From: an uncultured Opitutia bacterium
Lineage (GTDB): Bacteria; Verrucomicrobiota; Verrucomicrobiia; Opitutales; Opitutaceae
DNA length: 64,000 bases
Direction: 5' to 3'
Assembly: GCA_903827245.1 (NCBI GenBank)
Contig: CAIKHO010000074.1
Location: 62,001 to 126,000 of the forward strand
In this document: positions 26,961 to 40,580 of the stretch, in pieces
How the letters are laid out: each line of letters opens with the position of its first letter
How positions within the stretch are numbered: position 1 is the stretch's first letter
Notes under the pieces: model-generated
What the model was told of the DNA's origin: nothing
The model's database searches: none
The model's input: only the letters and a program-made list of their open reading frames with translations
Translations under genes and position numbers: made by a program

Positions 26961-27869
26961 TTAAAGATCCCCAAAGGCCAGCGCCCGGTCGCGCCCGGCC
27001 GCCTTCGCCGCATAGAGCGCCTTGTCGGCGGCGGCCACGAGGGATTTGCCGTCGGTGGCGTCTCCCGGCATTACCGCCACCCCTGCACTCACCGTGACCG
27101 GCAGCTCGATGTCGCCGGCCCGGAACGGGCTGCGACGCATCTCGGCGCAGATTCGGCGCGCGGTCTCGAGCGCCATCGCCCGGTCCATTTCCATCACCAC
27201 CAGCGCAAATTCCTCTCCACCGAAACGGGTCACGCGGTCGACCGAGCGCATCAGGGCGCCCAGCCGCCGGCCCACTTCGCGCAGCACCTCGTCGCCGGCC
27301 GGGTGGCCGTGCGTGTCGTTGACGCGCTTGAAATGATCGATGTCCACCAGCACCAGCGCCAGCGGGCGGCCGAACCGGGCCGCGCGCTCGCTTTCCTCCG
27401 CGAGGATGCGGTCGAACTCGCGGCGGTTGAGCAGGCCGGTCAGCTGGTCGCGCGTGGCCAGCCGGCGCAGCGCCTCCAGGGTCTCGCCGAGCTTGAGGGC
27501 GTAGCGCAGGGAACGTTCCAGCGTGCGCGGCGTGATTTCACCTTTGACAAGGTAATCCAGTGCCCCGGCGTTCATCGCCGCAAAGTCCACGCGCTTCGCC
27601 GTCTCCGCCGTCAGGAAGACAATTGGCGTGCGGCACCCCTGCCCCACCGCCTGCTGGATGAGTTCCAGGCCGTCGCGGTCGCCCAGCCGGTAGTCCAGCA
27701 GGCACGCGGCGTAGGCCCCACTGAGGAGTTTCTCCAGACCTTCTTCGTAGGTTTCGGCCCATTCGAGCTCGTAGGCCTCCGCGCGGATTTTGCGAAACTG
27801 CGCCTGCGTCAGCCGGAATTGCATCCGGTCATCGTCGATCAGCAGGATCTTGAGGGCGCTCTTGCTCAT
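26961..27869 (-). CDS. Response regulator diguanylate cyclase (receiver-GGDEF)
   Basis: A 302-residue protein. The receiver domain (about 1-125) has LLIDDDRMQ and a phospho-acceptor Asp in ACLLDYRLGDRDG. The GGDEF domain (about 140-300) has the active motif RFGGEEFALVV and, five residues upstream, an RSVD inhibitory site for c-di-GMP feedback. The product should therefore be an active, product-inhibited c-di-GMP synthase controlled by phosphorylation. No cognate kinase is adjacent. Its ATG overlaps the trpA stop as ATGA at 27866-27869, so the two genes are translationally coupled. Confidence 0.93.
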   Translation of the reverse strand: MSKSALKILLIDDDRMQFRLTQAQFRKIRAEAYELEWAETYEEGLEKLLSGAYAACLLDYRLGDRDGLELIQQAVGQGCRTPIVFLTAETAKRVDFAAMNAGALDYLVKGEITPRTLERSLRYALKLGETLEALRRLATRDQLTGLLNRREFDRILAEESERAARFGRPLALVLVDIDHFKRVNDTHGHPAGDEVLREVGRRLGALMRSVDRVTRFGGEEFALVVMEMDRAMALETARRICAEMRRSPFRAGDIELPVTVSAGVAVMPGDATDGKSLVAAADKALYAAKAAGRDRALAFGDL

Positions 27870-31310: not shown

Positions 31311-31342
31311 TCCCTTGTGTGGGCGGGTGGTGTCCGGATCCT

Positions 31343-32437
31343 CTAGCGCCAAAGGTCCGTCGGCCAGTCGTAGCTGCCGGGCTTGATCGACACGATGGGG
31401 GCCGTCTGCCCAAACGGCCGCAGTGTGCCGATGCCGGGCGCGGCGACCTCGCAGGCGCATAGCCGGGTCCACCCGAGTTCCCGCACGACGGTGGCTGCGG
31501 TGGCGCCACCTTCGAGCAGCAGCCGTTCGATGGACATTCCGCGAAGCACCGCCGCGCCGGTCCGAGCCAGCTGCCTGATCAGGTCCGAAGGCGCCTTGCC
31601 TTGCGTCAGCGGACCTTCGCCGATTCCGATCAGGGCGCAGCGGTTCGAACGCAACGCGCCGGTGATTTCCACGACATCGTGCGGCAGGCTGAAGGCCGGG
31701 ATTTTGCCCTCCCGGGCCTGCTGCTGCCGCTTACTCCACGCCGCCGCACTGCCGCAGACCACCAGGGTGACCGGGGGTGAAATTTCCTCGCCCGGTCTCG
31801 CGAGCCGACGGGCGTCCCCGAGCGAACCGTTCGCTCCGGTCACCGGCGCCGAGCCGTGCTTCGTCAACAATGCATCGAAAAATTCCACGCCGCCGCCGGC
31901 CAGCATGCCGTCATCCGCCAGCCCCGCCTGGCGGACGAGATCCGCTTCGCCGGCCACATCCGGCACGGTCACGCCGTCCAAATCGTGCCCGAGCAGTTCC
32001 GCCACCCGCGATGTCGTTCGCGGATGCTCCGGATCGCGGGCAAAGTCCGTCGCGTGCAGCGGCTGGCCGTTCACCAGCAGGTGGCCGCCGCGAATCACGC
32101 GGCCACGCGAGGGATTCGCGGGAACGAGCATCGTCCGCACATGGCCCGAGGCGGCCATGATCGCCCGGAGTTCCGCCAGTACGTGGCCGCGCAGCACCGA
32201 GTCGCATTTCTTGTAAATCCAATCGGGTCGGACCTCGGCCACGCGCCTCGCCGCTTCGCCGGCTGCCTGCGCGGCTGCCGTCGCGGTCATCGCGCGCGAA
32301 TCGGTGTCGACGCAGATGACGTCGGCGTCCGTCCGGGGATCGAACATGGTCTGAACCTCCGCACGCAGGCCATGGCGCAGCGCCGCGCCGGCAAGTTCCG
32401 CCGCACCGCTGATGTCGTCGGCGATGACCGCAATCAT
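31343..32437 (-). CDS. Four-carbon acid sugar kinase family (DUF1537) protein
   Basis: A 364-residue ATP-dependent kinase of the DtnK/OtnK family, which phosphorylates D-threonate, D-erythronate or 3-oxo-tetronate. The N-terminal domain has VIADDISGAAELAGAALRHG with the DD substrate-binding pair, VDTDSRAM, YKKCDSVLRGHV and LVPANPSRGR. The C-terminal nucleotide-binding domain has LLLEGGATAATVVRELGW and PIVSIKPGSYDWP near the end. It is shorter than many members (about 420). It is last of three coupled genes: its ATG overlaps the pdxA2 stop by four bases, so it should use the substrate carried in by the KdgT-type permease. Confidence 0.88.
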   Translation of the reverse strand: MIAVIADDISGAAELAGAALRHGLRAEVQTMFDPRTDADVICVDTDSRAMTATAAAQAAGEAARRVAEVRPDWIYKKCDSVLRGHVLAELRAIMAASGHVRTMLVPANPSRGRVIRGGHLLVNGQPLHATDFARDPEHPRTTSRVAELLGHDLDGVTVPDVAGEADLVRQAGLADDGMLAGGGVEFFDALLTKHGSAPVTGANGSLGDARRLARPGEEISPPVTLVVCGSAAAWSKRQQQAREGKIPAFSLPHDVVEITGALRSNRCALIGIGEGPLTQGKAPSDLIRQLARTGAAVLRGMSIERLLLEGGATAATVVRELGWTRLCACEVAAPGIGTLRPFGQTAPIVSIKPGSYDWPTDLWR

Positions 32438-33438
32438 TGCTCAGGGCCGCTGAGCTTCACGGCGAGCTTTACCGCCGCGAACAAGCTGTTGGCACTCGCC
32501 CGGCCCTGCCAGGCGATGTCGAAGGCGGTGCCATGGTCCACGCTGGTGCGGATCACCGGCAGGCCAAGGGTCGTATTGATGGCCGAATCAAACGCCAGCG
32601 CCTTGAGCGGGATGTGACCCTGGTCGTGGTACATGCAGATATACGCATCCGTCTGCCGGCGCCGCGTCGCGAGAAACGCTGTGTCCGGCGGCAGCGGACC
32701 CTCGATCTCGCAGCCCTGCGCGCGCACCGCGTCGATCGCAGGCACGATGAATCGTTCCTCCTCGCTCTGGCCGAAGAGCCCGTGCTCGCCCGCGTGCGGG
32801 TTGAGCCCGCAGACCGCCAGCCTCGGCGCCCGGCCGCGCAGGCGGCGCATCGCCGCGGCCGTGAGTTCGAGCACGTCGCGGATCCGCTCCACGCTCAGGA
32901 GGCCGGGCACATCGCGGTAGCCGACATGGACCGTGACGAAGCTGCAGGTAAGCTCGTCGGAGGTGAGCATCATGCAGGAGCGTTCCGCGTGCATGCGCTC
33001 GGCAAAAATCTCCGTGTGGCCGGGATAACGGTGCCCGGCGGCGTGCAGGGCCTCCTTGTTCAACGGCGCGGTTGCGACCGCATCCACCTCCTTCGCCAGC
33101 GCCGACTCGATGCTCGCGATGACATAGCGAAACGCAGCATCCCCGCACCGGGCGCTGACCCGCCCCGGAACGAAATCCTCCACCCCGATGCACCGCAGAT
33201 CGAGCAGCACGGGCCCGCGCACCGCCGGGCCCGCGGTGCGCCATTCTTCCAGGCTCATGACCGGTGCCGCGAAGGGCAGCGATAGCTTTTCGGCCACCCG
33301 GCGCATCACGCCGGCATCGCCAAAGACGACCGGCGTGCAGACGGCGGTGACATCCGCCTCAGCAAGCAGGCGCAGGCAGATTTCCGGCCCGACTCCGGCG
33401 GGGTCCCCCATGGTGACGGCGATGCGCGGCGGATTCAT
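32434..33438 (-). CDS. pdxA2: PdxA-family 4-phospho-hydroxyacid dehydrogenase (PdxA2 type)
   Basis: A 334-residue NAD-dependent dehydrogenase starting at ATG 33438. Family motifs: [11 protein letters not shown] near the start, the metal ligand region [37 protein letters not shown] and [16 protein letters not shown]. PdxA acts in vitamin B6 synthesis. The paralogue next to DUF1537 kinases (PdxA2) oxidises 4-phospho-D-threonate or -erythronate with decarboxylation to dihydroxyacetone phosphate. Four-base overlaps with both neighbours point to the second role. Confidence 0.88.
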
Positions 33439-34391
33439 CGGACTTTCGCGAGTCTCCCCGCCCACCAGGCGGTGACCAGCGGCGTGGTCAGCGCGGTGAC
33501 CACGACACTGGCCGACACGAGCAAGGTTGCCGAGGCCGCGGCCGGGGCATACGCGGGATTCGCGGCGGCAATGAGCATGGGCACCGCCGCGGCATTGCCT
33601 GCGGTCGAAGAGGCGGCAAGGCCGGAAACGCCGGTGCCGCCGCCCAGGCGGTCGACGATGAAGAGCAGCGTGCCACTGAAGGCGGTGACCGAGAGTCCCA
33701 GCAGGAGGCCGAGGACGCCCGCGCGCCAGACATTGTGCAGATCGAGGCCGGCCCCGAGGGCAAAGGCGAAGAAGGGAATCAGCACCATCAGGGCGCGGCC
33801 GAGAAATTCGCGCATCTCCGGATCCAGATTCCCGAGGATCATGCCCACCACGAGCGGCAGGACGGCCCCCAGCATCACGGGCCAGGGAAAGGCCGACAAC
33901 CCGGCAAGTCCGAGGGTGATCATCGTGAGAAACGGTCCGGTTTCCAGGGACATCACGGAGTACGCCGCGACATCGCGCGGCGAGCCGTATTGCGTTACCA
34001 GCGCCATGTAGAGCCCCCCATTGGTGTCGTTGACGGCGGCGACGAGCGCGAGCGTCGAGATCCCGGCGAACACTCCACCGACGACGGGGGCCTCGCCGAG
34101 CAGGCGGCCGGCCACCAGACCGACCAGCACGCCGCAGAGCACCTTCGTGCCGAGCAGCAAACCGCCCTTCCGGAGAACGGCGGGCGCCGTCCGAAACTCG
34201 ATGTTTGCGCCGAGGCAGACGAAGAACACCGCCAGGATCGGGATCGCACCGGTGAAAAGGGCACCGGTGAACGAGCCGAAAAACGCCGGCAGGCGCGGGA
34301 AGAAACTGGCGATCAACGCCCCGAGCAGCAGCGGCACGATCATCATGCCGCCGGGAATGCGCTCGAGGGTACGCTTGAGGGGTAGGCTCAT
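33435..34391 (-). CDS. 2-keto-3-deoxygluconate permease (KdgT) family transporter
   Basis: A 318-residue membrane protein from ATG 34391. The N-terminus [20 protein letters not shown] and the blocks [36 protein letters not shown] and [16 protein letters not shown] are typical of the KdgT family, with about ten hydrophobic helices. KdgT proteins import 2-keto-3-deoxygluconate with protons. Coupling to PdxA2 and a DUF1537 kinase, and no KDG kinase or aldolase, suggests the real substrate is a tetronate. It is first in the operon; its TGA overlaps the pdxA2 ATG. Confidence 0.85.
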
Positions 34392-34560
34392 GCCGTTGGG
34401 TGGCGCGGGCGGCTTATTTTTTGCGCTCCGGGTTGCATCGCGCGGTCCGTGAAAACAAAAGGAGCTCGGCCGGGATGGGGGAACACGCGCAAGGGTAACT
34501 TCTCCACTCGGCACTGAACCGGACGGGCCCGCCCAGGTCAATTGGGTTGTGCACCCGGCC

Positions 34561-34686
34561 GTGTCCCGATTTCCGATCCGATTCGATCGGTCTCGTTCTT
34601 CGTGCTCTTTCTCGTTCTCCCCTCCGAACGCCAAGCCGGGAACGAGAAAGAGAACGATTTTAAGCCAAGCCCAACGAAATCAGGAC
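34561..34686. repeat. Family B hairpin, copy B5
   Basis: GTCTCGTTCTTCGTGCTC and GAACGAGAAAGAGAACGAT arms. The outer ends GTGTCCCGATTTCCGATC and AACGAAATCAGGAC form an inverted terminal repeat. Confidence 0.8.
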
Positions 34687-34749
34687 GCTACCCGTACGCC
34701 TGTCGCCATGCCTGCTGGCGGGACTGCGAACAATCGCCGTTTCCCAGGG

Positions 34750-34861
34750 GTCGAACCGCAGCGATCGGTCTAGCAGCCGAGTTAACGAGGCTGGGTGGGG
34801 TGACTCACCTCAAACCAGCCTCCTCACGTCGGCTGCTACCGGCGACAGCCTCGTTCGGGCT
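34750..34861. repeat. Family A palindromic element, copy A5 (inverted orientation)
   Basis: Compared with A3 this is the complement: TAGCAGCCGAGTTAACGAGG then TGACTCACCTCAAACCAGC and CGTCGGCTGCTACCGGCGAC. The right end GTTCGGGCT meets the stop codon of the hybrid kinase gene. The 34392-34860 gap otherwise holds copy B5 and no gene. Confidence 0.85.
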
Positions 34862-36906
34862 CAGGCGGAGGCCAGAGCCAGTTGCGGCTCCGGGGCCTCG
34901 GGAGCCGGCGGCGTCGCGTGCAGCACCTCGGCCACTGCGTTGAGCAATTGTCCCGGGGTGGCCGGCTTGCGCAGCAGGGCGACGGCCTCATCCTCCAGAG
35001 TTCCCAGCAGAGGATTCGTCCGCTCGCCCGCGCTGAACGCAAGGATCGGCAACCCGGGGTTGATTTTGCGAAGCGCGTGGATGAGGGCTCGACCGTTCAT
35101 GATGGGCATCATGATGTCGGTGAGCACCATCGCCGCCTGCTCCCGGTGCTGGACATACACTGCCAGCGCCTCGGCGCCGTCGTTGGCCAGCAGCACGCGA
35201 TAATTGTGGGCCTCGAGCGTCAGCTTGGTGATCTGCCTCACCGTGTGGTCGTCGTCGGCCACGATGATCAGTTCGCCGTTTCCGGGCGTCAGACGCCGGG
35301 CGACGGGTTCCGTGCTCGCCTCCGCCGCCTCGCACCGCGGCAGGTAGACGAGAAACCGGCTGCCGCGCCCGACGTTGCTTTCAACCTCGATGAATCCCCG
35401 GTGGGCCCGGACAATCGAGGCCACGGTGGACAGGCCCAACCCCGTGCCCTTGCCGATTTCCTTCGTCGTGAAGAACGGCTCGAAGATCTTTTCCCGCATT
35501 TCCGGCGGCATGCCCATGCCCGAGTCGGCCACACCCAGGCGCACATAGCGCCCCGGCTTCACGTCGCCTTTTTCCCGGGCCTTATCCTCGCCGACCGGGA
35601 TCTCGTCGACCGTCAGGCGCAGTTCGCCGCCGTCCGGCATCGCGTCGCGGGCATTCACGCACAGGTTGACGAGGACCTGGTGAAGCTGGGTCGCATCGCC
35701 GAGCACCAGGCCGGTTTCCTTGCCCATCATGGAGGTCACCCGGATCGAGCAGGGCATCGTTTGCTGCATCAGCCCGCGCACCTCGTTGACCAGAAAGTCG
35801 ACGGCGGTGGGCTGCATCTCGCTTTCCCCGCCGCGGACGAACATGAGGACCTGCTTGACCATCTCGGCGCCGCGCCGGGTGGTGGTCCGGACCATGTCGA
35901 TGATCCGCTCGCGGTCGGCGTCGGGTGCATCGGCCATTAGCTCGGTCGCCATGAGGATCGGGGCAAAGACGTTGTTCAGGTCATGCGCGATGCCGCTCGC
36001 CAGCGCGCCGACGCTTTCCAGCCGCTGCGTGCGCATCGCCTGCTCGGCATTCTTCTTGCGCTCGGTGATGTCGGTATTGACGACCAGGATGGTCTTGGGT
36101 GTGCCGGCCTCGTCGCGGACCAGCGTCCAGCGCGACTCCACCGTCAATTCCCGGCCCATCCGGGTCCGGTGCCGCAGTTCCCCCGTCCATTCGCCGTCCC
36201 TCAGCGTGTCCTGCTCGGCCGGTCCCGCACCGGCCTCATTTTCCTCGCCGAGCAAATCCGACTCCCGCCGCCCGATCGCATCCCGCTCGGGGACGCCGTA
36301 GAGGCGCTCGGCGCTACGATTCCAATAGCTGATGACGCCCTGCAGGTCGCGGACATAAATCGCATCGCGTGCCTCGGCCAGGAGGTCGGCCTGTTCGCGC
36401 GCCTGCGCCTCCGTCCGCTTGCGGATGTCGATCTCGATCCGGAGGGCGTCGTTGGCGCGGCCGAGTTCCGCCGTGCGCTCGGCCACCCGGTGCTCCAGGT
36501 TGTCCCGCGCCGCCTGCAGTTCCACCTGGAGGCCGTGGTTCAGCAGCGCCATGTCGATCGCAATCTGGAGTTCGCGCTCCTTGAAAGGCTTCAACAAATA
36601 GCTCGACGGCCGGGAAAGCTTGGCCCGCTTCAGGGTCATTTCGTCCGAATTGGCCGTCAGGTAGACGACCGGGATGTTGTGGCGCTCCCGGATGGTCCCG
36701 CCCGCATCGATCCCGTCCATGCGCCCGCGCAGGCAGATGTCCATCAGCACCAGATCCGGCTTCAACTCGGTGGCCTTCGCCACCGCTTCCTCGCCGGTCG
36801 CTACCATGCCGCAGACCTCGTAGCCCAACTTCGGCAGGCGGCGGCTCAGGTCGAGCGCAATCAGGCTCTCATCCTCGACGATCAGGATCACGGCGGGGCG
36901 GTTCAT
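34861..36906 (-). CDS. Hybrid histidine kinase (receiver-PAS-kinase-receiver)
   Basis: A 681-residue cytoplasmic protein. The N-terminal receiver (about 5-120) has LIVEDESLIALDLS and the Asp in LVLMDICLRG. A coiled linker (LEHRVAERTAELGRANDAL) and a PAS domain (about 185-295, IYVRDLQGVISYWNRSAERL) follow. The histidine kinase has the H-box ASGIAHDLNNVFAPI, the N-box VNLCVNARDAMPDG and G-boxes DSGMGMPP and GKGTGLGLS. The C-terminal receiver (about 555-665) has VADDDHTVRQ, the Asp in MVLTDIMMP and a late LRKPATP. With no DNA-binding output it likely ends or relays a phosphorelay. Its start overlaps the stop of the permease-kinase fusion as ATGA. Confidence 0.93.
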   Translation of the reverse strand: MNRPAVILIVEDESLIALDLSRRLPKLGYEVCGMVATGEEAVAKATELKPDLVLMDICLRGRMDGIDAGGTIRERHNIPVVYLTANSDEMTLKRAKLSRPSSYLLKPFKERELQIAIDMALLNHGLQVELQAARDNLEHRVAERTAELGRANDALRIEIDIRKRTEAQAREQADLLAEARDAIYVRDLQGVISYWNRSAERLYGVPERDAIGRRESDLLGEENEAGAGPAEQDTLRDGEWTGELRHRTRMGRELTVESRWTLVRDEAGTPKTILVVNTDITERKKNAEQAMRTQRLESVGALASGIAHDLNNVFAPILMATELMADAPDADRERIIDMVRTTTRRGAEMVKQVLMFVRGGESEMQPTAVDFLVNEVRGLMQQTMPCSIRVTSMMGKETGLVLGDATQLHQVLVNLCVNARDAMPDGGELRLTVDEIPVGEDKAREKGDVKPGRYVRLGVADSGMGMPPEMREKIFEPFFTTKEIGKGTGLGLSTVASIVRAHRGFIEVESNVGRGSRFLVYLPRCEAAEASTEPVARRLTPGNGELIIVADDDHTVRQITKLTLEAHNYRVLLANDGAEALAVYVQHREQAAMVLTDIMMPIMNGRALIHALRKINPGLPILAFSAGERTNPLLGTLEDEAVALLRKPATPGQLLNAVAEVLHATPPAPEAPEPQLALASA

Positions 36907-39479
36907 AGTTGGGCGTATTCGTGCTCGTGGACCGTTACATCCTGCAGGGTGAGATCGAAGGTGGTGCCGCCATCCGGAGGAGATTTCACCTCGATCGTAC
37001 CCTGGAGCTGCTGGACCAGCGTGAAGACCAGCTGCATGCCCAGCGACTCGGTCTGGCGAAGATCCAGGCCGGCGGGAATGCCGCAGCCGGTGTCCGCCAC
37101 CTGGAGGAAGAGGCGGTCGTCACCCTGGCGCTTGAACGTCACGGTCAGCCGGCCTTTGCCGCCATCGGGAAACCCGTGCTTGTAGACATTGGAGATGAGC
37201 TCGTTGATGATCAGGCCGCAGGGCACCGCGGTGTCGATGCCCACGAAAACCTCCTCGGCGTCGAGGACGAACTCAATGTCACGGGCCGAGGAGCTGAAGG
37301 AACTCACGATGTTCTCGGTCAGCTCGTGCAGGTAATCGGTGAAGTCGATCCGGGCGAGGTCGACCGACTGGTAGAGTTTCTCGTGCACGAGCGCCATCGC
37401 GGCAATCCGGCCCTGGGTGTCGGTGATGATCGGGCGGGCCTGGTCGTCGGGCAGGTAATCGAGCTGCAGGTTCAGCAGGCTCGAAACCACCTGCATGTTG
37501 TTCTTAACCCGGTGGTGCACCTCCTTGAGCAAGGCGTCCTTCTCCTGCAGCGAGCTGCGGAGGGCCACCTGGGCGCGCTGCCGTTCATGCAGCTCCACCC
37601 GCAGGCGCTCGTTGGTCTCGGTCAGCGCGGCGCGCGACCGCAGCAGTCCCTCGCGCGCGCCCTCGAGACCGCCGGCCGCCCGGCCGATCCCTTCCTGGAG
37701 CAGGTTGAAATTTCGCGCCATCTCGCCGACCTCGTCCCGCGAGTTGAGCATGATCGGGCTGACCTCGAACCGGGCCTTCGCCGAGTCGAGGTCGCCGGCC
37801 GCGAGAGCCCGCATCGCGCGCTCGAAGTCCGCCATGGTGCCCTTGACCAGCTTGCTGGCCGCGGTGGAAACCTGAACCGCGGAGTGCGCAATCATGCCGG
37901 GCAGGATCAGTCCGACGCAGATCGTCAGCAGCGCGACCACGACAAAGATGTCCTCGAGCGCGGCGATCAGCGCCGTGTCATGCTGGGAAATGGAGGTCAC
38001 GGCGATGAGGTAGCCGACGGCGTCGAGCGTCAGCACGATGAGCATGGCTCCCGTAAGCTTGACGTGCAGCGTATGCGCGATGCCCGGGAGCCCTGCCTTG
38101 CTGCGGTCGGTGAACTTGCGCCAGGCGTACGCGGCTGCGCCGGAATAGGCGAAGGCGAAGCCGACGATCACCGTCAGGAGGCCGAACTGCTCGAAGCCAA
38201 GGACCACGGTGAGCCCCCAAATGGCGGCCGCGATCAGGCCGAGGACGATGGTCCCGCGCGGCGCCCGATAGGGTCTCTCCATGTCCGGTTCGCTGCGCCG
38301 GAGTAGCCAGACCGCCACGTTGGGCATCGCGATGCCGATGAGATAGGTGAGATTGGCCGCGGCAATCAGCCACACGGGGTCACCGATCAGGAGAAAGACG
38401 ATCGCCACGAACGCAGTCAGCAGGGTTGCTGCCCACGGCGCGTCGGTCCGCGAGCGCTTGGCGAGGAATTCCGGCAGGAGCCCGTCCTCCGAAAGCTGCG
38501 CGAGCGTCCGGGACGCCCCGGCGAGCGGCGCGATCGTGCCGTGAAACATGTTCATCATCATGAACCAGATCGCCGCACCCTTGGCCACACTGCCCAGCAA
38601 CGGAGCAAAGGTCGGTCCCAGTTCCAGCGCGAGATCCTTGCCCAGCGGTTCCGGCCCAAGCGTACCCAGCCAAACGACCGGCAGGATCACGAAGTAAAGC
38701 GTCGCCATCGCCGCGCTGGCGAACATGGCCCGGGGCACGTTCTTTTTCGGATCGATGGTCTCACCGACGTGACATGCCGCCTGCTCGAAGGCCGGCGCCG
38801 CAAAGCCCACGAGATAGAGGCCGGCCATGATGCTCGTCACCTGGCCAAACCAGCCGGAAAACGGGACCGTGAGATGATAACTGAAGGCTTGGTGCCAGTC
38901 GACGGTGCCACGCGCGATCGGGACAAAGGCGGATAGAAAGGCAAGCAAGGCCGAGACCGTCGCGAACGGCATGGCCAGCCGCATGACCCACTTGACGCCG
39001 CACAGGTTGACGATGGTGAAAAAGACGACGATGGCGGATGCGAGCAGGGGCACGGAAATCCACGGCAGGTACCATTGCTGGATGGCGGAAGCCGACAGCA
39101 GAGCCGTCAGGCCGCAGGTCGGCACCCAGCCCCACCAGTAACAAACGCCGGTGAGGTTCGCGAGGACCGGACTGAGCGGCCGAAAGGCCTCCGCACACGT
39201 CGCTGCAATCCCACCCACGCGGTTCGGGTACATCAGGATCAGCTCTGTCCATCCGGGAGTGGCCGCCCAGCTGAGCAGCAGCCCGGCAATCAGCAACGGC
39301 ACAGCAGCGCTGCCCTGCCCCGGAATCGCACCTTGGCCGATGAAGAGCGCCCCGATGAGGAACAAGCTCTGGTTGATGCCGCCCATCGCGACGCAAGTGG
39401 TGCCGAACCAGCCTATGGTGCGGGGGTGCGAGCGCGGAAGGGCCTGGTCTTCCCCGCTAGGTGATGCCTTCAGATTCAT
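36903..39479 (-). CDS. Amino acid permease (APC) fused to HAMP and HWE/HisKA_2-type histidine kinase
   Basis: An 858-residue transporter-sensor fusion. Residues about 20-445 are an APC-superfamily permease: the first unwound helix TTCVAMGGINQSLFLIGAL, LTGVCYWWGWVPTCGLTA, MAGLYLVGFAAPAFEQAACH, VGETIDPKKNVPRAM and MERPYRAPRGTIVLGLI. Two further helices (about 460-520) lead to a HAMP-like segment (MRALAAGDLDSAKARFEVSP, then NSRDEVGEMARNF), a coiled coil, the phospho-acceptor motif LLKEVHHRVKNNMQVVSSLL and a HATPase with NELISNVYKHGF and ADTGCGIP. ATG 39479 is preferred to TTG 39494. It is coupled by ATGA to the hybrid kinase. The closest idea in known biology is CbrA, a transporter domain of another family fused to a kinase. 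Confidence 0.9.
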   Translation of the reverse strand: MNLKASPSGEDQALPRSHPRTIGWFGTTCVAMGGINQSLFLIGALFIGQGAIPGQGSAAVPLLIAGLLLSWAATPGWTELILMYPNRVGGIAATCAEAFRPLSPVLANLTGVCYWWGWVPTCGLTALLSASAIQQWYLPWISVPLLASAIVVFFTIVNLCGVKWVMRLAMPFATVSALLAFLSAFVPIARGTVDWHQAFSYHLTVPFSGWFGQVTSIMAGLYLVGFAAPAFEQAACHVGETIDPKKNVPRAMFASAAMATLYFVILPVVWLGTLGPEPLGKDLALELGPTFAPLLGSVAKGAAIWFMMMNMFHGTIAPLAGASRTLAQLSEDGLLPEFLAKRSRTDAPWAATLLTAFVAIVFLLIGDPVWLIAAANLTYLIGIAMPNVAVWLLRRSEPDMERPYRAPRGTIVLGLIAAAIWGLTVVLGFEQFGLLTVIVGFAFAYSGAAAYAWRKFTDRSKAGLPGIAHTLHVKLTGAMLIVLTLDAVGYLIAVTSISQHDTALIAALEDIFVVVALLTICVGLILPGMIAHSAVQVSTAASKLVKGTMADFERAMRALAAGDLDSAKARFEVSPIMLNSRDEVGEMARNFNLLQEGIGRAAGGLEGAREGLLRSRAALTETNERLRVELHERQRAQVALRSSLQEKDALLKEVHHRVKNNMQVVSSLLNLQLDYLPDDQARPIITDTQGRIAAMALVHEKLYQSVDLARIDFTDYLHELTENIVSSFSSSARDIEFVLDAEEVFVGIDTAVPCGLIINELISNVYKHGFPDGGKGRLTVTFKRQGDDRLFLQVADTGCGIPAGLDLRQTESLGMQLVFTLVQQLQGTIEVKSPPDGGTTFDLTLQDVTVHEHEYAQL

Positions 39480-39602
39480 GAGGTGAATTTCCAAACATCT
39501 CTTTCGGTCCCACTTAAGCCGGACTTAAGGCAAGACAGGCGACGTAGTAGAACCACTTACTGGCATGACACATTTCGGCTGGGCATCTTTCAAAACCGCG
39601 AT

Positions 39603-39697
39603 TTGTCCTGTTTTCGTTCTTCTCGCCGCGCAATTGCGGTGTTTGAGACGCGACCAAGAGAACGATAATTTCGGATCGGAGATGAAATCAGGACAGT
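39603..39697. repeat. Family B element, copy B6 (degenerate)
   Basis: TTGTCCTGTTTTCGTTCTTC on the left and GATGAAATCAGGACAG on the right, with shortened arms (CCAAGAGAACGATAATTTC). It lies in the divergent gap 39480-39791. Confidence 0.65.
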
Positions 39698-39791
39698 ATC
39701 CGGCCGGCAGCCGGCTTGTCATCCCGCAAGGAATGGGATCGCATTTCCGCGCCCATCCCGGGCCAATCCCACCGCAAACCCATCAGACCTC

Positions 39792-40580
39792 GTGGCATTC
39801 TGGCTCAAAAAAGCGGTTTCCTTCTTTCTCATGCCGCTGCCCGTGTGCCTGCTGCTGATGTTCGCCGGCCTGTGGCTGCTGGGCAAACGCCCGCACCGGA
39901 AATCCGGGCGGCGACTCCTGGCGGCCGGCGTGATTCTGCTGCTTCTCGTCAGCAATAATCTCGTCAGTACCTGGCTCATCCTGCCCCTGGAGGGAAGTTA
40001 CCCGGCCATGACCGAGCTGGCTTCTGACCAAGCGCCGCCCACCGCCCTGGTCCGTTGTCGCTACGTGGTCGTGCTCGGCGGCGGTCATGGGGACATGGAG
40101 GCCCTTCCCGCTGTCAGCAAACTCAGCCCGTTTGCCCTTGCCCGCCTCACCGAGGGCGTCCGGTTGCTCCGCGCCCTGCCCGACGCGCGTCTCATCGTGA
40201 GCGGCCCCGGCATCGACGACCATCCCACGCACGCCTCCGTGCTGGCCGCGGCGGCCGTTTCACTCGGGGTCGCGTCCGAGCGCATCATCAGGATCGAGAC
40301 CGCGCGCGATACCGAGGACGAATCGCAGGCCGTGCGCCAGATCGTCGGCGACGCCCCCGTCGCCCTCGTCACTTCCGCCTGGCACATGCCGCGGGCCGCC
40401 GTGCTTTTCCAGCAGGCCGGCGTCGACGCCCTGCCCTGCCCGGCCGACTTTCTCGCCAAACCCGTCCCCGGCTGGCACGCCTCGGACTTCAATTGCGAGC
40501 CGGACGCCCTCAACCGCAGCACCTACGCGGTGCGCGAGTACATCGGCCGGGTGTGGCTCTGGCTGCGGGCGAAGGCGTGA
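39792..40580 (+). CDS. YdcF/ElyC-family DUF218 membrane protein
   Basis: A 262-residue protein from GTG 39792 with two N-terminal membrane helices (FFLMPLPVCLLLMFAGLWLL and LLAAGVILLLLVSNNLVSTW) and a DUF218 domain: RYVVVLGGGHGDMEALP, ARLTEGVRLLRALPDARLIV, IIRIETARDTEDESQAV, LVTSAWHMPRAAVLF and YAVREYIGRVWLWL. ElyC in E. coli affects peptidoglycan precursor and undecaprenyl-phosphate handling; the reaction is not known. It stands before the DUF47-pit pair but is separated by a C-type repeat. Confidence 0.85.
   Translation: MAFWLKKAVSFFLMPLPVCLLLMFAGLWLLGKRPHRKSGRRLLAAGVILLLLVSNNLVSTWLILPLEGSYPAMTELASDQAPPTALVRCRYVVVLGGGHGDMEALPAVSKLSPFALARLTEGVRLLRALPDARLIVSGPGIDDHPTHASVLAAAAVSLGVASERIIRIETARDTEDESQAVRQIVGDAPVALVTSAWHMPRAAVLFQQAGVDALPCPADFLAKPVPGWHASDFNCEPDALNRSTYAVREYIGRVWLWLRAKA

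Follow-up and report, generated by a model that had tools for sequence, protein, structure and literature searches.

Does a single reading frame in the genome of an uncultured Opitutia bacterium really join a permease to a histidine kinase, and if so, what would such a protein sense and where would its signal go? We analyzed a stretch of 64,000 nucleotides (the window) in which the minus-strand gene P0001 starts with ATG and runs unbroken for 858 codons to its stop. A sequence-only reading had placed a permease, additional helices, a HAMP-like segment, a HisKA_2 domain and a HATPase in this one frame. The reading frame, Pfam and a structural model bear out these assignments and their order, the permease being of the APC type and the additional helices two in number. 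The features of P0001 and of its coupled gene P0002 are as follows.

36903..39479, minus strand: transporter-fused sensor kinase P0001, 858 aa (ORF and Pfam; gapless full-length homologue in locus L086)
38076..39434, minus strand: APC/LAT-fold permease domain, residues 16-468 (Pfam AA_permease_2; AF2 model; Foldseek/VIA-align)
37896..38069, minus strand: two extra helices, TM13-14, residues 471-528 (models; alignment and conservation)
37680..37895, minus strand: HAMP-like segment, residues 529-600 (Pfam HAMP just under cut-off; model)
37299..37523, minus strand: HisKA_2 dimerisation/phosphoacceptor domain, HHRVKNN at residue 655 (Pfam; motif search)
36942..37214, minus strand: HATPase_c catalytic domain, residues 756-846 (Pfam; NELISN at 759, DTGCG at 796)
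34861..36906, minus strand: coupled hybrid kinase P0002, REC-PAS-HisKA-HATPase-REC (Pfam; overlaps P0001 by ATGA)

Pfam matches AA_permease_2 to residues 22-429 of P0001 (126 bits against a cut-off of 27), HisKA_2 (PF07568) to residues 653-727 (98 bits) and HATPase_c to residues 756-846 (50 bits). The HAMP match at residues 552-597 scores 24.5 bits, slightly under the cut-off of 25; we assign the segment to HAMP because, of the 16 homologues scanned, 12 have the corresponding match over the cut-off (two fall under it and two, L009 and L030, have no listed HAMP). P0001 thus belongs to the APC superfamily permeases, by AA_permease_2 and its APC/LeuT fold, and to the HisKA_2 histidine kinases, by HisKA_2 and HATPase with intact motifs (Pfam; motif search), and it is the sole HisKA_2 match in the window's genome, which is 97% complete. 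For the membrane part Pfam gives AA_permease_2 and AA_permease only, with neither an SLC5 (SSS) nor an ammonium-transporter (Amt/Rh) model at E up to 0.01. Between transporter and kinase it lists HAMP, below the cut-off in P0001 and also in homologues, and no STAC, a result that depends on Pfam holding a STAC model.

An AlphaFold2 model of residues 1-649, calculated from a 27-row alignment of the sensor module described below, has a mean pLDDT of 81.9 and, like the LeuT fold, interrupted helices at TM1 and TM6. Top Foldseek matches include LAT1, BasC, y+LAT, AdiC and ApcT with E about 1e-12 to 4e-11 (1e-12 to LAT1), and VIA-align superimposes the model on y+LAT1 with Z 38.3 over 430 residues (rmsd 3.7) and on ApcT with Z 34.7. 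The N-terminal part as modeled is an APC/LAT fold, which answers the earlier reservation that it might be something else. Residues 471-528 form two more helices, which are present in all 27 aligned modules. From residue 529 onward the model predicts two helices, the second of them long, with a connector in between, a shape as expected for HAMP followed by a coiled coil. With the relay part as query, Foldseek matched HAMP crystal structures weakly (E above 1), and it returned no strong fold match for residues 466-649 (best E 0.08).

The stop codon of P0001 overlaps the start codon of P0002 as ATGA, as had been noted from the sequence. Kinase motifs are found in both proteins (AHDLNN at 307 in P0002) and receiver motifs in P0002 (LMDI at 54 and LTDI at 595); Pfam reports no DNA-binding domain in either, in line with the earlier reading. 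In L086, a locus from another genus of the same family, the P0001 homologue aligns over all 858 residues without a gap at 81% identity and adjoins a P0002 homologue at 69% identity, for which HisKA is not listed by Pfam. We conclude that the fusion is real, since a gapless full-length homologue with the same partner exists in another genus. The proposed coupling of a transporter-sensor fusion to a two-component partner is upheld by this recurrence; the other homologues share the sensor part and carry unlike outputs.

Comparison with these homologues indicates that residues ∼1-630 of P0001, the permease core and relay, are a discrete module joined elsewhere to other kinases or to GGDEF-EAL. The module is found in at least 34 other loci at 55-86% identity to P0001. 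A scan of genome contigs gave 78 loci among the best 80, at least 29 of which (L002-L030) match the permease part; we disregarded L031-L079, whose matches are confined to the kinase part. A blastp search with residues 1-650 gave at least 26 near-full-length matches at 55-77% identity. Because that query itself ended at residue 650, we judged the module boundary from whole-length alignments of 32 homologues, with L086 set aside for its identical architecture and L021 (61% identity by tblastn) also left out. Measured against P0001, the median identity amounts to 71% and 73% within residues 17-400, 63% in 401-528, 54% in 529-600 and 53% in 601-630, and it drops to 27% in 631-652, 20% in 653-727 and 30% in 728-858. 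Pfam does not list AA_permease_2 for L025, yet the module there aligns at 55% identity. The hosts are recorded as belonging to the Verrucomicrobiota, the Alpha-, Beta- and Gammaproteobacteria (Pseudomonadota) and the Actinomycetota, with one MAG labelled Omnitrophota; most are MAGs, with Roseiarcus fermentans (L018), Actinoplanes palleronii (L021) and a complete Paraburkholderia plasmid (L083) among the exceptions. The module is rare and patchy: counting the window's genome each time, 3 of 100 family genomes carry it, as do 2 of 288 in the phylum sample and 9 of 384 in the class sample.

We built a tree of 35 rows from the contig-search loci, further members from genome searches and the Paraburkholderia plasmid. 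The fragment L028 (residues 42-390) and L029 (frame broken) were kept out of both the tree and the module alignment A1, L021 out of A1, and L100, a partial module at a contig edge (residues 252-649), out of the tree; L089 and L090 (genomes G628 and G444) equal L004 and L005 in frame length, and each such pair is treated as a single genome and counted once. By Pfam, the outputs comprise four kinase types and GGDEF-EAL: HisKA in 23 of the 35 rows, HisKA_2 in two (the window and L086, the latter called from full-length likeness and motif), HisKA_3 in two, HATPase without a Pfam phosphoacceptor domain in three and GGDEF-EAL in five. The three kinase parts with HATPase_c and no listed phosphoacceptor domain are those of L017, L030 and L098, and a VLHN motif occurs instead in L017 and L030. 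The rows nearest to the window are Verrucomicrobiota. Counting starred branches alone, the GGDEF output requires at least three changes on the tree; a single gain with two later losses might account for the three. The labels show some clustering by output (nine changes against a shuffled mean of 11.6, with a value as low in 0 of 200 shuffles), so outputs have been swapped less often than chance would give, which argues against free shuffling.

Eighteen of the 30 module kinases carry a REC domain of their own. Among the 12 that do not, a REC-bearing frame neighbors the module in seven, which lends further weight to the coupling with a two-component partner; no REC was detected in the single neighbor scanned at each of L023, L024 and L099, the neighbors of L022 lie outside the scan, and L025 ends near a contig edge. 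We considered P0002 as a general partner of the module, but its only clear ortholog among the module loci is that at L086; the L083 neighbor matches P0002 at 32% over the kinase and receiver end only.

Some of the attached domains are c-di-GMP enzymes. Every frame of 38 module loci (574 kb) was scanned with domain HMMs built from these loci, that for HD-GYP from one sequence. GGDEF-EAL is fused to the module in five loci (L012, L013, L014, L020 and L026); an EAL motif search gave no match in L012 and L020, though Pfam EAL matches both. In five further loci a downstream open frame overlapping the module frame carries REC together with GGDEF-EAL, EAL or HD-GYP: REC-PAS-GGDEF-EAL in L017 and L021, REC-GGDEF-EAL in L030, REC-EAL in L083 and REC-HD in L019 (outside the window, overlap refers to open frames whose start codons are unset). 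Ten of the 11 c-di-GMP-domain genes in the 38 loci are thus attached to the module, and the HMMs detect no such attached domain in the other 28 loci. For the unfused cases the chance figure is about 3e-05, a rough value that uses approximate gene counts and a hypothesis formed on the same data. The window itself contains one candidate target:

26961..27869, minus strand: REC-GGDEF protein, sole GGDEF match in the genome

This gene lies 8.4 kb downstream of the module frame, between trpA and miaA, and encodes the one GGDEF protein found in the 97% complete genome; it is a possible final target of P0001 and P0002. We rejected its nearness as evidence of linkage: the gene is common in the family, with matches at E 1e-30 in 39 of 61 genomes (in 33 cases with an identity of at least 52%), compared with 3 of 100 for the module. 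The earlier suggestion of a c-di-GMP output finds support among relatives, in ten loci, and not in the window itself.

We favor, with moderate confidence, the reading that P0001 is a receptor that evolved from a permease, responds to a small solute (an amine, possibly), drives a HAMP-coupled output and relays to P0002. According to domain matches and the model, a single chain combines an APC/LAT core, two helices, a predicted HAMP-like relay and a HisKA_2 kinase in which the motifs are present. In the proposed mechanism, the permease core would bind at its central site a small solute, which is perhaps an amine or N-oxide and probably no alpha-amino acid. The rocking motion of the permease, or an arrested form of it, would pass through TM13-14 to HAMP, one of the best-understood signal relays, and the HAMP signal would then set autophosphorylation of the dimeric kinase. 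As P0001 has no receiver, phosphate would go to the hybrid kinase P0002 with its two receivers, which might relay it to a target elsewhere, possibly the REC-GGDEF protein.

What the core would recognize can be approached from conservation. Across 27 modules column conservation peaks at the TM1 break (0.94) and is high in TM3 and TM6 (0.89), the TM2-3 stretch (0.89), TM10 (0.88) and TM8 (0.84), with lower values in TM4 (0.66), TM5 (0.68), the linker (0.56) and the coil (0.57). The pattern is as for a kept, putative binding site, with one exception: the TM2-3 stretch equals TM3 in conservation although it is not expected to line the site. At the TM1 break of the model the modules have N36 and Q37, both invariant, and the nearly invariant S38. 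Known amino-acid APC transporters contain a glycine-rich motif in TM1, which we assume to be equivalent to this break. Among NCBIfam permease models, P0001 and all four other modules scanned score best with the TMAO permease NF053774 (108-148 bits, compared with 55-80 for the next permease model), and the P0001 score of 114 bits falls far short of the equivalog cut-off of 690. The TMAO permease was reportedly identified in Methylocella silvestris by Zhu et al. in 2014 (cited in PMC5520151). Of the 115 invariant module positions, 44 are shared by at least three of four stand-alone TMAO-type relatives; these include C113, W115, W118, Q328 and Y379, and they are mostly absent from three other APC permeases. 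In contrast, the module-invariant N36, Q37, A228, P229 and H237, several of them in TM1 and TM6, differ from the four relatives, and the stand-alone NF053774 members that we examined have no signaling domain named. Given the TMAO permease as nearest family and N36, Q37 and S38 at the TM1 break, an alpha-amino acid is a less likely ligand than another small solute. Our reasoned guess is a small amine, an N-oxide or another solute that is not an alpha-amino acid.

Stand-alone relatives encoded on plasmids are mostly 25-30% identical to the module, and three (L102, L103 and L105) score over the NF053774 cut-off. We found no TMAO-permease match at E 1e-60 in 61 family genomes, and no solved relatives of a stand-alone TMAO-type permease by sequence at E 1e-6. 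Two of the plasmid-borne family members lie on a Rhizobium plasmid (L105, 3500-5284) and a Methylobacterium plasmid (L103, 5944-7569), the latter 4-5 kb from methylamine-utilisation genes.

The core could be an occluded or dead transporter that serves as receptor only, which we regard as possible, if on balance doubtful. There is a precedent in Ks-Amt5, in which an Amt domain joined to a kinase is described as binding ammonium without moving it (PMC5764959), and the module-specific residues in TM1 and TM6 would fit, although their replacement may mean just another substrate. A working symporter that imports the solute while the kinase reads the transport cycle, and so reports its own flux as proposed for CbrA, seems to us rather unlikely. 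The whole APC fold and the conserved substrate region are compatible with transport. Against it, aligned position 176, which we take to be the TM5 lysine site, is Ser or Ala in 27 of 27 modules and Lys in the stand-alone APC permease L107. A lysine in TM5 is described for proton-coupled APC transporters, and CbrA itself is described as a histidine transporter (PMC13022988). The lysine does not decide the question, since four TMAO-permease-type relatives lack it as well, and we have discarded its absence as proof of lost transport.

A third alternative is that the sensor governs the adjoining catabolic genes and perceives a four-carbon acid sugar or related nutrient.

31343..34634, minus strand: kdgT-, pdxA- and dtnK-like genes, in the same direction as P0002 and 226 bp downstream of it (Pfam; comparison with genome G017)

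Positions 31317-39797 of the window (8.5 kb with P0001, P0002 and the kdgT-, pdxA- and dtnK-like genes, each of them on the minus strand) are missing at the matching site of G017, a genome of the same genus. One flank is a 132-bp stretch, which in the window contains tRNA-His, and the other is a DUF218 gene; their matches in G017 are 129 bp apart, which suggests that sensor pair and operon were probably gained or lost as one stretch. A functional tie may conceivably follow from this arrangement. However, the three genes occur at 0 of 37 other module loci (tblastn E 1e-8; some flanks are short), the pair in L086 has other neighbors, and the sensor genes lack a DNA-binding domain by Pfam, so that we hold control of this operon to be improbable. 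A search for conserved metabolic neighbors gave, beyond module, shadow and signaling frames, just small families in three or four loci. The GC content of the block (0.661) resembles its surroundings (0.639 and 0.662) and thus gives no sign of foreign origin, and among the 20 repeat families listed there are no convincing direct repeats around it. That P0001 is two genes joined by assembly error or frameshift, as the sequence-only reading had cautioned, is ruled out for practical purposes by the gapless homologue in another genus and by the recurrence of the permease-HAMP-output order in many loci.

The receptor reading places P0001 beside known transporter-fused sensors. In CbrA and CrbS an SLC5 transporter is described as joined to a kinase through STAC (PMC13022988, PMC5715377, PMC9100948), and CbrA is called a 'rare' transceptor in a paper that also poses the coupling of transport motion to the kinase as an open question (PMC13022988). 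Like P0001, the SLC5/STAC kinases (CbrA, CrbS, RpuS), proposed transceptors, combine a LeuT-fold transporter domain and a histidine kinase in one chain. P0001 differs in that its permease is APC (AA_permease_2) rather than SLC5, that Pfam gives a HAMP-like segment and not STAC after the module transporter, as far as Pfam holds a STAC model, and that the module outputs include directly fused GGDEF-EAL. Ks-Amt5 likewise recruits a transporter fold as kinase sensor, but has an Amt fold and no HAMP, whereas P0001 has an APC core, two helices and a HAMP-like relay. The 5TMR/S-component-fold receptors, as described, reuse a transporter-like membrane fold and combine it with a wide range of outputs, GGDEF, EAL and kinases among them (PMC11109136); their fold is that of the S-component and that of the module APC/LeuT. 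Among the matches listed in the open-licence literature (titles and abstract starts), none describes a fusion of an APC permease to a kinase or GGDEF, and we therefore take the APC-fused sensor as an addition to the transporter-fused sensors.

One permease core is here joined via HAMP to both kinases and c-di-GMP enzymes, a module with exchanged outputs that was not visible from the single gene first described. In the direct GGDEF-EAL fusions one polypeptide could report a ligand response as c-di-GMP, with no phosphorelay in between, and the coupling question would therefore be testable in E. coli. More tentatively, and with rather less than even confidence, we propose that APC-2TM-HAMP is a mobile, general-purpose sensor domain that evolved once from an amine-type permease and, through transfer and the exchange of outputs, reached at least three phyla, or four with a correct Omnitrophota label. 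It would often feed c-di-GMP by fusion or through neighboring REC-GGDEF-EAL, REC-EAL or REC-HD-GYP proteins, so that uptake-type recognition of one small solute would set decisions on attachment or motility. In one further locus (L087, 1-6705, genome G075) the module gene lies near the contig start, flanked by dnaA and by a gene that encodes a cNMP-binding/SpoIIE phosphatase protein.
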